DNA of 53,633 nt from an uncultured Caryophanales bacterium (GTDB lineage Bacteria > Bacillota_I > Bacilli_A > RFN20 > CAG-826). Of this stretch, positions 544-23,603 are shown piece by piece. The stretch is taken from the NCBI GenBank assembly GCA_946414655.1, contig CAMKPL010000006.1:1-53633 (forward strand). The letters run 5' to 3'. A model generated the notes under the pieces. It saw nothing but the letters and a program-made list of their open reading frames with translations, was not told the DNA's origin and did not search any database. The position numbers were made by a program, and so were the translations under genes. Each line of letters begins with the position of its first letter. Position 1 is the first letter of the stretch.

Positions 544-3357
544 TCACACATGCTTATTCAGGGTAGATACAGAAACACCCAAAGCGTCAGCAACTTCAGC
601 TTGTGTGAAACCAGAATTGAGCATTGCTTTAGCATGAGCAATCTTGGCATCAGTAAGAATTGGCAAAGAAGAGCTCTTAGGAAGAGCCAATTCCTTCACT
701 CTATCCTGGTTAGCTTTGTTGATAATGTCTACAACAGTAGTCTTGTGCAAAGCGCCAGCTTGAATAGCTTCCCATTCGCGATCTTCTATGTCGAACGGTT
801 TAGGCTTACCCAAAATTGCTCTTTGTTGATTGATTACTTGTGTTTTCATCTTGCGAAGATGCGCTTTTCCATCAGTTGTGTTCTTGTCATAACGTTCTGG
901 ATAGGCTGCTATCCTCTGTTTAACTATTACCGTGGCCGTTCTTAGAGCCTGCCTCTCTAATGAGGCTGAGATGGCCGAGTTATCGAGCTTCCTAGTCAAA
1001 GACTTAACCTCATTTGCATAGATCTCGGCAGCTTTCTTAGAGTAAGGTGTGGCTTCTACAGCAAGGCTCTCTTTTCTAGCTTGGTTCCCCAGGGCCCGGG
1101 TCCTATTGGCATAGTCTGCATATACCCTCTCTATCTCATAGTTACCTTTAGAGATAAGATCTCTTGCATCACCACCTTTAACAAAGGCTTCATTCATCTG
1201 ATTAGACTTGATCTTAACAAGCTTTCCTTCTTCCGAATAGCCTTTCTGTTTAGGTGTTAGTTCTTTGTAGTACTTCTTGCCAGTGTTCTCATTGACAAAG
1301 TCTACTTTTCTCTTATCTGTATAGTAGTACTTCTTCTCCCCAGTCTCTTTGTCGATGCCAGCATACTTTCTGTCAGGAACATCCTCTTCACCAGATGCTC
1401 TAGAGATGATAGTACTAGCTCCGCCATAACGACCATTATCTTTCTTTTGGTACTTTTTCTGAAGATCTGCAATTCGATACTCCTCATAAGCACCTTTGTA
1501 ATTCAACTGATGCTTATAAGCATCAATAATGGTAAGAGAATACTTAGTAGCTCTAGCAATCTCATCGTTACTAGCACCCTGAAGAGTCATGTCTGTGATA
1601 AGGTTCGTGACACGTCCCATAAGGTTGTAACCATAAGCTTGCGTAATAGGTTTCATACCTTCATAAGCAGGCCATGTTGCTCTAGGATCAAATCCTCTAA
1701 TAGACTCAATCTCAGGCATGTTCTTAATGTGACCATTGTCATTAGGAATAGCAACGACAGTGTCGCCATCAAAATCTGCACCGGACAAACGATGAGCCAC
1801 TTCAGGATGGATACCTATAGCGTCTTTGGCTGCGCCTGTGATGTATTGTTTACCTTCTTTGATGTTATTATTTACAGTAACAATAGGTATCTCACCTTTA
1901 TTCTGATGAGGATAACGAATTAATGCCAAAGTTGTTCCGTTTGGATACTGAGGACAATATACTTCGTTTGGTTTAGCAGAAGGTAAAGGTAATAACAGCT
2001 TAACTGATTGACCAGGTAAAGCTGCAGCCTTAAGATGTACACATTTCTTATCACATTCATCAGCAAAGTCCTGAAGCATCTTCTGTTTTACAACAGGATT
2101 GGTGATCTTCGTAATGTCTTCATACTCAGAATATGATTTGGAATATGCAAGATCTAATTGTCTCTTAGCTAATGAAGGATCCTGTTTTGACAGGACCTGA
2201 GAAGCTATCGTTTTGTTGGAAGTCCAATCCATCCAATCGCCTTCTTCATTAACTTTGTTTATACAACCGCTTTGTCCACCAGCAATAAGCTGCGCACCAA
2301 ACGGATCTTCAATATCAATAGAACCATCTTCAGATCTTTTCATTGGTTTAAGAACCTGTTTAGCTTTAGGATCATCAACCATGATTGGAGTCTTTTGTGA
2401 TTTGCTAGTATTAAATATAATGTCTACGCCTTCAGGCATATTGTCTGCATAAGCTGCAACACCTTTTAAATAGTGCGTTCCATCAACACCGATTCTTACC
2501 TGTGCATAAAGTGAACCACCAAGATCCAAATCTTCAACACCTCTTCTGATCTGGATAAGTCCATCTCTATCTGCTCCAGGATATCCATCGATTGGATTCT
2601 TATCTTCGGCATGTAATACAAGAACTCTTTTCGAGTCTATAGAAACTGGAGGATATGTTCCAAGAACTGTTTTGTCATCCTGATTAAATTTAACTTCATA
2701 AGGAAGCTGAATATTATCAAGATTTTGCTGAACTTCTTTATAAGCTGCAGCTTTCATCTCTTTTTCTGACATATCTTTCCATTCATCTTTTGGCTTAACC
2801 AAAACTGTCATTTGAGTGTTTTGGCCTGCTTGGGTCATCTGTTTTTGACCCCACTGAACATTTAAATATCCACGATCTTTTAAAACCTGAATGGCAGTTT
2901 CGAATTGTGTTTGGTTTACATTGAGAGCTGTAGCACAACCTTTACCAATATCAATGATTCCCTTTTTATCAAGTTCATCTTCGAGTCTGTCACAAAGTGT
3001 TTCGATTCCTCGATTGGTTTCTTCGTAACCAGGCTTAAGCCAATTGTTGATTGTGCTTTCAGAAACACCCATCTGTTTTGCAATTGCAGAAACAGACATT
3101 TGTCTTGTATCCCTTAATTCTTTAACATGTGCTATTTTCGCTGCTTTCTCAGCCGCAGCACCATAAGAATGTCTATAACGAACTTCTTTCAAACTCATAC
3201 CATAAGCTTCTGCAATTTCTCGTTCGCTCATGGTCTTTCTTAGTTCGCTCCATCCTTTAAACCATTCTTCATCCTGATATGGATGATCACCGGAACCCCA
3301 AGGATATCTACCAGAATGCCTTTTGGTTCCATAGTGCAAAATATAATCGTGGTTCAT
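544..3357 (-). CDS. RNA polymerase beta-prime-like (YonO/DFDGD type) protein with helix-turn-helix domains
   Basis: 937 aa. Residues 527-532 read ADFDGD inside HPEVAHRLSGADFDGDTVV, which closely matches the catalytic loop of multisubunit RNA polymerase beta-prime (HP..C..(F/Y)NADFDGDQMAVH); the three Asp would bind the catalytic Mg. Single-chain relatives such as YonO of phage SPbeta also carry DxDGD, and the length is similar (about 900 aa). Helix-turn-helix segments are seen at about 43-64, 84-108 and 915-936, with a winged-helix-like part at 125-170. Residues 8-27 (HYGTKRHSGRYPWGSGDHPY) resemble the N-terminal tag of five virion-module proteins in this window. The likely role is transcription of phage genes, possibly from a virion-delivered enzyme. 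The alternative is a virion protein that keeps the fold without activity. SD AGGAG lies about 11 nt before ATG. The catalytic motif is seen; promoter specificity is inference. Confidence 0.8.
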   Translation of the reverse strand: MNHDYILHYGTKRHSGRYPWGSGDHPYQDEEWFKGWSELRKTMSEREIAEAYGMSLKEVRYRHSYGAAAEKAAKIAHVKELRDTRQMSVSAIAKQMGVSESTINNWLKPGYEETNRGIETLCDRLEDELDKKGIIDIGKGCATALNVNQTQFETAIQVLKDRGYLNVQWGQKQMTQAGQNTQMTVLVKPKDEWKDMSEKEMKAAAYKEVQQNLDNIQLPYEVKFNQDDKTVLGTYPPVSIDSKRVLVLHAEDKNPIDGYPGADRDGLIQIRRGVEDLDLGGSLYAQVRIGVDGTHYLKGVAAYADNMPEGVDIIFNTSKSQKTPIMVDDPKAKQVLKPMKRSEDGSIDIEDPFGAQLIAGGQSGCINKVNEEGDWMDWTSNKTIASQVLSKQDPSLAKRQLDLAYSKSYSEYEDITKITNPVVKQKMLQDFADECDKKCVHLKAAALPGQSVKLLLPLPSAKPNEVYCPQYPNGTTLALIRYPHQNKGEIPIVTVNNNIKEGKQYITGAAKDAIGIHPEVAHRLSGADFDGDTVVAIPNDNGHIKNMPEIESIRGFDPRATWPAYEGMKPITQAYGYNLMGRVTNLITDMTLQGASNDEIARATKYSLTIIDAYKHQLNYKGAYEEYRIADLQKKYQKKDNGRYGGASTIISRASGEEDVPDRKYAGIDKETGEKKYYYTDKRKVDFVNENTGKKYYKELTPKQKGYSEEGKLVKIKSNQMNEAFVKGGDARDLISKGNYEIERVYADYANRTRALGNQARKESLAVEATPYSKKAAEIYANEVKSLTRKLDNSAISASLERQALRTATVIVKQRIAAYPERYDKNTTDGKAHLRKMKTQVINQQRAILGKPKPFDIEDREWEAIQAGALHKTTVVDIINKANQDRVKELALPKSSSLPILTDAKIAHAKAMLNSGFTQAEVADALGVSVSTLNKHV

Positions 3358-4206: not shown

Positions 4207-4229
4207 GCCAATCACCTCATAAAAAATAT

Positions 4230-4263
4230 AATGAGAAGTGATACACTCTCATCCTCTCTCACT
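4230..4263 (-). terminator. Hairpin with U-tract between P3 and the VRR-NUC gene (leader attenuator or small RNA)
   Basis: ATGAGAGTG-TAT-CACTTCTCAT with one bulge, then TATATTTTTT. It follows P3 by only about 10 nt, so most transcripts from P3 might end here. Ends like the small RNA units. Confidence 0.6.
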
Positions 4264-4278
4264 ATAAGAGGTGAAATT
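4259..4278 (-). promoter_or_regulatory. Promoter-like element P3 (AATTTCAC-CTCT-TATAGTGA)
   Basis: Two mismatches to the 20-bp consensus. Located 1 nt after the stop of the SF2 helicase gene. Confidence 0.65.
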
Positions 4279-10506: not shown

Positions 10507-10518
10507 AAAATATAATGA
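10507..10518 (-). terminator. U-rich terminator tail of RNA-A
   Basis: The RNA ends ...CTCTC-ATTATATTTTTTT; the CTCTC strand pairs with the RNA 5' end. The same CATTATATTTTT tail ends the other small RNA units. Confidence 0.55.
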
Positions 10519-10587
10519 GAGCTATGGACGGGACTCGAACCCGCACTCCAGGATTTCCGCCTGCTCCAACCATTGGCCATTCCTCTC
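10517..10587 (-). tRNA. tRNA-like 71-nt RNA, degenerate or unusual tRNA (RNA-A)
   Basis: The minus-strand RNA folds as a cloverleaf. A closing stem GAGAG/CTCTC plus ATGG/CCAT is interrupted by G-G and A-A mismatches. A small D-arm analogue is CCAA-TGG-TTGG. An anticodon-arm analogue has stem CAGG/CCTG and the 7-nt loop CGGAAAT. The T-arm is canonical: GCGGG-TTCGAGT-CCCGT. The loop lacks U33 (G instead); if read as a tRNA the anticodon would be GAA (Phe). The D-arm is too short for a normal tRNA and no CCA is encoded. P2 (10586-10605) abuts its 5' end and CATTATATTTTTTT follows its 3' end, so it is an independent unit. It could be a decayed tRNA or a tRNA mimic. Confidence 0.5.
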
Positions 10588-10605
10588 ACTATAAGATGTG
10601 AAAAA
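10586..10605 (-). promoter_or_regulatory. Promoter-like element P2 (TTTTTCAC-ATCT-TATAGTGA)
   Basis: One of 12 copies of the 20-bp element TTTTTCAC-N4-TATAATGA. The -10-like part is TATAGT. RNA-A begins directly after it. Confidence 0.7.
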
Positions 10606-10611
10606 TATAAT

Positions 10612-10682
10612 GAGAGCGTTAGCGAGTGGTCAGCTCAATAAACCACCTTTGATTATACATTTAAGTATAACACTCTACTCTC
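10612..10682 (-). ncRNA. Small structured RNA, 71 nt (RNA-B)
   Basis: It lies between P1 and P2 and is the same length as RNA-A, with the same closing stem (GAGAG at 5', CTCTC at 3') and the same CATTATATTTTT tail. Internal hairpins: GTTATAC-TTAAAT-GTATAAT and GTGGT...ACCAC, the latter competing with GAGTG...CACTC. There is no T-arm and no tRNA features. Function unknown; an antisense or regulatory RNA is possible. Confidence 0.6.
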
Positions 10683-10700
10683 ATTATAGTGTGTGAAAAA
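10681..10700 (-). promoter_or_regulatory. Promoter-like element P1 (TTTTTCAC-ACAC-TATAATGA)
   Basis: A perfect copy of the 20-bp element, directly after the stop codon of the 192-aa gene. RNA-B begins at the G after TATAAT. Confidence 0.75.
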
Positions 10701-22550: not shown

Positions 22551-23312
22551 TTAATAATCCCACCTGTCACCACAGTTATGATCGTACATAATTGCCCGAT
22601 AAGCTTTGTGTTCTACCTCAGAATATACCGAAGTCATCTTTGGTTTCAACGTTTGTACACGCTTGTCTAAACCAAACTGATATGCCGATGCGCATTCCGG
22701 GCACATGTCGTCATTGATGTTGAAACATCCATAAAAGTCCACAAGTGACGGATGCTCTTCTCCAGTCACCATATCTGCCATAAATGCCGCAGCTACGTAA
22801 ATATCATTCTCGCTAGCCCAGAATCGTACGCCTGTGATCGTGTCGATCCACCAAGTCTTTTCGTCCGTTCCCTTATCCTCAATATCATAATTAGGTTCGT
22901 CATCTCCTTCTTCCTGTTTGATACCGAGGCTTTCTTTGATCTGATCTGCTTTCTCTTGACCTACGAGCTCCTTTACTTTCTCACCAAGTTTCTCCTTATC
23001 TGTCTTGGCCAGAGTATAAGCTCCGAGCAATGCTGCGTACTTCTTATCATGCTCAATGTTGAGCGTGATGATCGACGCAATGGTCAGACCGCATATCGTT
23101 ACTGGCGCAATATAATACGGCCATGCCTTCTTGGCTACTTCACCTTTTGTTGCATCTTCACCAAGATCGTAACGAATATCTTTTGTCTTTTTAGCTGCAT
23201 ACCAGCTTGTTACACCGGTTGTTACTACACCGCCAACCGCAGCCATTGTTAGAAGTGTAGTTGAATTCTCAGCTACAAAATCCATTACTTTTGTTACAAT
23301 TCCTACTTTCAT
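22551..23312 (-). CDS. DUF6353-like membrane protein, 253 aa (paralog 3)
   Basis: Starts MKVGIVTKVMDFVAENSTTL, then LLTMAAVGGVVTTGVTSWYA (helix 1) and YIAPVTICGLTIASIITLN (helix 2), a Lys/Glu-rich coiled part, and a C-terminal domain with a CPEC pair and a WWIDTITGVRFWAS strand region. Same topology as paralogs 1 and 2. P7 upstream gives it a private promoter with a leader of about 45 nt. SD AAGGAGG. Confidence 0.75.
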   Translation of the reverse strand: MKVGIVTKVMDFVAENSTTLLTMAAVGGVVTTGVTSWYAAKKTKDIRYDLGEDATKGEVAKKAWPYYIAPVTICGLTIASIITLNIEHDKKYAALLGAYTLAKTDKEKLGEKVKELVGQEKADQIKESLGIKQEEGDDEPNYDIEDKGTDEKTWWIDTITGVRFWASENDIYVAAAFMADMVTGEEHPSLVDFYGCFNINDDMCPECASAYQFGLDKRVQTLKPKMTSVYSEVEHKAYRAIMYDHNCGDRWDY

Positions 23313-23367: not shown

Positions 23368-23387
23368 TCATAATGCTGAATGAAAAA
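23368..23387 (-). promoter_or_regulatory. Promoter-like element P7 (TTTTTCAT-TCAG-CATTATGA)
   Basis: A degenerate copy (CAT for CAC; CATTAT for TATAAT) that shares its T-run with the terminator of RNA-C. Drives DUF6353-like paralog 3. Confidence 0.6.
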
Positions 23388-23400
23388 TATAATGAAGGAT
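23381..23400 (-). terminator. U-rich terminator tail of RNA-C
   Basis: TCCTTCATTATATTTTTC; the TCCTTC strand pairs with GAAGGA at the RNA 5' end. Confidence 0.55.
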
Positions 23401-23585
23401 GTATCTCAGGTACTAGCCCACAGAAAACTAGCCATTAATCGGATTCCCAAGTGCCTCAAGCCTTTTGTCAAGTTCCAGATCGGATTTCAACCGACCACTC
23501 ACCGCTAACCTTGTCCCCGACACCACGCGGGTAGGAGTTCCACCTACGCATTCGTGTCTCGCGTTTTGCTTTTGATTATTCCTTC
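23394..23585 (-). ncRNA. Structured 192-nt RNA of unknown family (RNA-C)
   Basis: A gene-free stretch with its own P8 promoter and CATTATATTTTT terminator. Closing stem ATGAAGGA/TCCTTCAT joins the ends. 5' domain: nested stems GACAC/GTGTC, ATGCG/CGCGT and TAGG-TGGAACT-CCTA. Centre: hairpin GGTCGG-TTGAAAT-CCGATC. 3' domain: repeated GGCTAG and several G/C-rich pairs. It is far more GC-rich than neighbouring intergenic DNA and has no ORF. I could not match it to tmRNA, RNase P, 6S, SRP or a T-box. Function unknown. Confidence 0.65.
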
Positions 23586-23603
23586 ATTATAGCGCGTGAA
23601 AAA
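23584..23603 (-). promoter_or_regulatory. Promoter-like element P8 (TTTTTCAC-GCGC-TATAATGA)
   Basis: A perfect copy; RNA-C starts right after it. It directly follows the hairpin at the end of the 70-aa gene. Confidence 0.75.

Follow-up and report, generated by a model that had tools for sequence, protein, structure and literature searches.

A structured phage RNA family with a T-arm-like hairpin, encoded behind a recurrent promoter-like motif in phages with YonO-like RNA polymerases

DUF3800 RNAs, GOLLD and ROOL are structured RNAs of mobile elements whose function is unknown, and 6S RNA and tmRNA are stand-alone RNAs closed by a long terminal stem. The tRNA elbow and the T-loop motif have been described (PMC4810234), and YonO has been demonstrated to be a DNA-dependent RNA polymerase that transcribes late genes, in work that left its promoter open (PMC5467207). 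The locus analysed here is part of a 53.6-kb contig whose tail, polymerase and exonuclease genes give it a phage character; a 16S fragment (L321) suggests, with low confidence, a Bacillota-like host. We call the whole contig (53,633 nt) the window, and comparative evidence places a structured RNA of ~199 nt on its minus strand, running from 23587 to 23389. The evidence is comparative because folding of the single sequence gives little support (z = -1.36); a plus-strand RNA was dropped (z = +0.18). An earlier note, made from the sequence alone, had proposed a structured RNA at this place. Covariation and covariance-model matches bear this out on the minus strand, on which all motifs listed in that note are read, and its impression of a raised G+C content likewise holds (0.477, vs 0.346 in other intergenic DNA).

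The RNA belongs to a new phage family that is absent from Rfam, real and structured. Rfam 15 gives 0 matches across the whole window at the gathering threshold and at a permissive threshold no match to the RNA itself, for which the earlier note had found no known class either; a weak caiA match (permissive, E 0.15) was rejected, since it adjoins the RNA and does not cover it. Rfam searches of six relatives gave none at the RNA, and neither ARAGORN nor the Rfam tRNA model (window and six relatives) finds a tRNA there; the acceptor, D, anticodon and T arms of a cloverleaf are not all present. No earlier description of the RNA was found in the literature searched, a body that omits most subscription papers.

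Approximately 40 distinct relatives occur in Gordonia, Rhodococcus and Arthrobacter phages and in metagenomic phage contigs. A blastn search of phage genomes matched intergenic regions that carry no annotation in Rhodococcus phages ReqiPepy6 and ReqiPoco6 and Gordonia phage Secretariat, where core, promoter, closing stem and U-run are the same as in the window; further copies came from three pattern scans of IMG/VR and additional BLAST, and carriers also include Gordonia phages Fazel, Tanis and Perkunas and Arthrobacter phage Qui, those of Tanis and Perkunas being first detected by covariance model. In Qui (L222:2518-2715) the annotated start of gene 80 falls inside the RNA and is probably misplaced. 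A covariance model, R1, built from 18 sequences with the window excluded (alignment A4), matches the window at 23564-23504 (54 bits, E=5.1e-12) and, separately, in the same strand and order, at 23464-23409 (20.5 bits, E=0.002), with an enlarged P4 arm between the two matches. Most matches of the first pattern scan (143 of 196) had TTC[AG]A loops, mostly tRNA T-arms, and were discarded, as were reverse-strand R1 matches in Makai and Truckee (32 bits), which had no promoter motif in the stretch examined. Plasmids gave no match to the RNA, no other genome in the family of the source bin carries it, and single-sequence IMG/VR searches with the polymerase or a neighbouring protein gave no close relative of the window phage.

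The conserved fold is a closing stem, P1 carrying a T-arm-like P2, P4 and P3, with P5 in one subgroup. In the window its parts are as follows.

23389-23587, minus strand: the RNA (~199 nt), matched by R1; predicted start within or just after TATAATGA
23580-23587, minus strand: closing stem, 5' strand AUGAAGGA, pairing with 23399-23392; compensatory changes in other members
23392-23399, minus strand: closing stem, 3' strand UCCUUCAU
23525-23564, minus strand: P1 (ACGCG 23564-23560 / CGCGU 23529-23525), enclosing the loop and P2; covariation in two alignments
23559-23548, minus strand: conserved 12-nt loop AGACACGAAUGC, joining P1 and P2
23531-23547, minus strand: P2, T-arm-like hairpin GUAGG-UGGAACU-CCUAC (U54, R57, A58, G53-C61)
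23522-23524, minus strand: P5, 5' strand GGU, pairing with ACC 23411-23409; GGY/RCC covariation in the group B alignment
23409-23411, minus strand: P5, 3' strand ACC; group B covariation
23438-23521, minus strand: enlarged P4 arm; same helices with changed bases in the window-like relatives L293 and L304
23521-23517 and 23442-23438, minus strand: P4a (GUCGG/CCGAU), within the P4 arm
23513-23510 and 23451-23448, minus strand: P4b (CAAG/CUUG), within the P4 arm
23478-23496, minus strand: second T-loop-like hairpin GGUCGG-UUGAAAU-CCGAUC in P4; window only, from single-sequence fold prediction
23413-23431, minus strand: P3, hairpin CUAGUUU-UCUGU-GGGCUAG with conserved tandem U-G pairs; R1 match and alignments

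In A4 (14 pairs) 92.4% of cells are paired and covariation is 0.596, vs 0.241 when shuffled and at most 0.104 with slid partners. The corresponding values in A7, 24 sequences outside the R1 training set, are 94.6%, 0.541, 0.185 and at most 0.119, and P1, P2 and P3 all covary there; P2 is paired in 100% of A7 cells, to be read knowing that A7 was fetched by a pattern that fixed three P2 G-C pairs, U54 and A58 and nothing of P1 or P3. P1 is paired in 100% of cells with compensatory change in 4 of 4 pairs in both alignments. Group A (8 sequences; closing stem, P0, P1, P2, P4, P3) is 95.8% paired with double changes in 20 of 34 pairs, and RNAalifold reached nearly identical helices independently for this group; P5 (GGY with RCC) is an additional helix of group B. 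The loop AGACRCKAAUG is near-constant across very diverged phages.

Several of the pairings first read by eye coincide with these helices: the proposed closing stem covaries in other members, the TAGG/CCTA stem is P2 (GUAGG/CCUAC), and the duplicated GGCTAG represents the two strands of P3, both covarying. The proposed GACAC/GTGTC and ATGCG/CGCGT stems must be given up, as they compete with P1, and the hairpin GGTCGG-TTGAAAT-CCGATC can form but is particular to the window copy. That copy groups with L293 and L304, with which it has the P4a position in common (GUCGG/CCGAU in the window and L293, AUCAAA/UUUGAU in L304), and it has a 5' segment, AAUCAAAAGCAAAACG, in common with L304. It is long because its P4 arm is enlarged; core members measure ~110-130 nt. 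The earlier suggestion of a new class of large RNA with a regulatory or effector role is supported as to the new class, by the lack of an Rfam match, the ~40 homologues, strong covariation, promoter motif and terminator-like end.

In 42 of 43 copies a G-C pair closes the 5-bp stem of P2 on a 7-nt UNNRANN loop (U54, R57, A58, G53-C61), U54 being fixed by all three search patterns and A58 by two. A58 was unforced in the copies found by BLAST and by the first pattern, position 57 is a purine in 42 of 42 with no pattern forcing it, and some members have the exact loop UUCGAAU. The P3 loop also has a conserved GG, which the predicted helix pairs with UU, so that any D-loop partner of the T-loop stays hypothetical; a D-loop reading of P3 was dropped, since UUU pairs with GGR.

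The flanks of the RNA resemble a promoter and a terminator, both of which the earlier note had anticipated.

23584-23601, minus strand: promoter-like motif TTTCAC-GCGC-TATAATGA, directly adjoining the RNA (motif counts)
23383-23393, minus strand: terminator-like AUUAUAUUUUU tract, 3' of the closing stem (sequence)

The copy before the RNA reads TTTCACGCGCTATAATGA (23601-23584), and the closing stem and U-run together span 23399-23383; nearly every member has a U-run after its closing stem. The motif, also written TTACATGCCTTATAATGA, occurs in the form TTTCACNNNNTATARTGA ten times in the window, always on the minus strand (0.01 expected), and only twice in the rest of the bin, both in contig C7, which also encodes a polymerase. 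In 23 phage records TTWCANNNNNTATARTGA occurs 101 times forward and 0 times in reverse, and never in a reversed-pattern control. Motif scores of at least 10/13 precede 39 of 42 RNA copies, vs 2.7% of random stretches; the Fazel copy lacks a separate motif and comes after a tRNA-like RNA. Because closing stems that start right after TATAAT covary, transcripts are predicted to start nearer TATAAT than is usual for host sigma-70 promoters.

Other small RNA units follow the same motif. Window positions 10511-10603 (minus strand) hold a tRNA-like unit with the promoter motif, closing stem GAGAG/CUCUC, a T-arm (GCGGGUUCGAGUCCCGU) and a U-run, which neither ARAGORN nor the Rfam tRNA model calls; directly upstream, at 10604-10698 (minus strand), is another promoter-closing stem-U-run unit with no evident ORF, and at 4227-4276 (minus strand), at the end of a helicase-like gene, the motif precedes a short hairpin and U-run. 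Contig C7 (L285:10505) has a tRNA-like unit behind the motif, placed about as those of the window. Fazel (L262:1408-1474) and ReqiPepy6 (L002:3899-3971, annotated 'tRNA-OTHER') carry tRNA-like RNAs that score ~42 bits with the tRNA model and in which a GNRA-type tetraloop replaces the anticodon loop (CCGC-GAAA-GCGG; GUCA-GCAA-UGAC). In Arthrobacter phages Gordon (L269), Truckee (L270) and Makai (L271) this promoter precedes small RNAs arranged in tandem, among them a ~60-nt RNA made up of acceptor and T-arm and a divergent one that combines GACACGAAUG with a T-loop.

The window also encodes a polymerase that could read this motif.

544-3357, minus strand: YonO-like single-chain RNA polymerase (phrog_4291, E=6.3e-275; ADFDGD motif)

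The protein has both the phrog_4291 match and the DFDGD catalytic motif of YonO-like enzymes, and is provisionally named from motif and size. The source bin has three contigs with such a polymerase (C5, C6, which is the window, and C7); public phage records (L249, L256, L253 and others) label YonO-like polymerases 'structural protein', 'tail fiber protein' or 'DNA-binding domain protein'. Polymerase homologues occur in only 250 of 50,697 phage records, and are encoded by 7 of 7 complete named RNA-carrying phages tested, a count that includes Truckee and Phaby through a weak, divergent form of the RNA; among IMG/VR contigs with the RNA, mostly fragments, the figure is 19 of 34 (7/14 and 12/20). 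Polymerase, motif and RNA could co-travel merely through phage kinship.

The computations show a new family with a conserved fold, placed behind a recurrent promoter-like motif in phages with YonO-like polymerases, and on balance we lean towards a stand-alone non-coding RNA. The phage polymerase would transcribe it from the motif, with which the early start implied by the closing stem right after TATAAT fits, the closing stem and U-run would end the transcript, and the RNA would act in trans. Given its T-arm and the neighbouring T-arm RNAs, our first choice of function, held tentatively, is a mimic or decoy of the tRNA elbow, aimed at a host factor that binds tRNA, for example RNase P, the ribosome or a tRNA nuclease belonging to a defence system. 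More speculatively, and we regard this as doubtful, the phage lineage may run a dedicated system of tRNA-mimic effectors directed against RNA processing or tRNA-based defence in the host: a battery of small T-arm RNAs (this family and the anticodon-less tRNA-like RNAs) produced with a YonO-type polymerase and promoter of its own.

The RNA might instead be a 6S-like partner or regulator that binds the YonO-like polymerase of the same phage, as its position behind the presumed promoter of that polymerase and the co-occurrence in all complete named carriers would suggest; this is unlikely, however, since many polymerase-bearing phages have no copy detectable at the sensitivity of the R1 search and the fold has no conserved bubble resembling an open promoter.

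Whether the RNA acts in cis bears on its neighbour.

22551-23312, minus strand: downstream gene for a membrane-like protein; no promoter motif between RNA and gene

In the window and most members the RNA is preceded by the promoter motif and followed, with no second promoter in between, by an ORF that has a Shine-Dalgarno site, an arrangement expected of a riboswitch or attenuator leader in which closing stem and U-run form a regulated terminator for the gene downstream. The ORFs 3' of the RNA nevertheless belong to several unrelated families, giving no consistent downstream gene; a promoter separates RNA and next gene in 6 of 20 members (Gordonia and Rhodococcus phages and L210 among those with a separate promoter), the Fazel RNA follows a tRNA-like RNA, and no alternative antiterminator pairing is seen. 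A cis-acting leader is thus improbable, the 13 of 20 members with no separating promoter leaving it some room, and the unrelated downstream genes and separate promoters favour an RNA that probably acts stand-alone and in trans.

The T-arm-like P2, and the tRNA genes and tRNA-like RNAs nearby, could also mark a degenerate tRNA or tRNA-derived gene with no function of its own; compensatory changes throughout and a near-constant loop across diverged phages point to selection, and with no tRNA match to the RNA in Rfam or ARAGORN this is very improbable. A transposon-associated guide RNA of the omega RNA type, prompted only by a loose resemblance that the earlier note saw in the 3' half, can be discounted, as the relatives are phage genes in which T-arm, P1 and P3 are conserved, the conserved 3' end is closing stem and U-run with no variable guide, Rfam matches no such family, the neighbours are phage tail and small membrane proteins, and no TnpB or IscB gene occurs in the neighbourhoods read or among the window proteins scanned.

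For phage biology the family is a well-supported addition to the known RNAs, and one branch of YonO-like polymerases gains a concrete candidate promoter motif; both are open to testing in Gordonia, Rhodococcus and Arthrobacter phages that can be cultured. Should the T-arm RNAs prove to be mimics or decoys, they would interfere with the way the host handles tRNA by an RNA-based route of a new kind. Like DUF3800 RNAs, GOLLD and ROOL, the RNA is a structured RNA of mobile elements, yet it has no Rfam match to any of them. It resembles 6S RNA and tmRNA in its terminal stem, a likeness compared through Rfam, and differs from them in having no Rfam match, no tag reading frame and no promoter-like bubble. 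Bacillus phage SPbeta also has a non-coding RNA region near the YonO transcription start (PMC5467207), but this YonO-transcribed leader is a 1.7 kb region that contains Rfam DUF3800-VIII (RF03075) and has another fold. R1 found nothing on SPbeta, from which the promoter motif is also absent, and a short string that DUF3800-VIII shares with the RNA core was set aside as explained by DUF3800-VIII's own fold. The SPbeta DUF3800-VIII RNA (L240:9410-9475, minus strand) lies within a long non-coding stretch between yonN and yonK. From tRNA the RNA differs in its arm order, its 12-nt P1-P2 loop and its lack of a CCA acceptor end and anticodon arm, while P2 shares with the tRNA T-arm (PMC4810234) a 5-bp stem closed by G53-C61 and a 7-nt loop with U54, purine 57 and A58.
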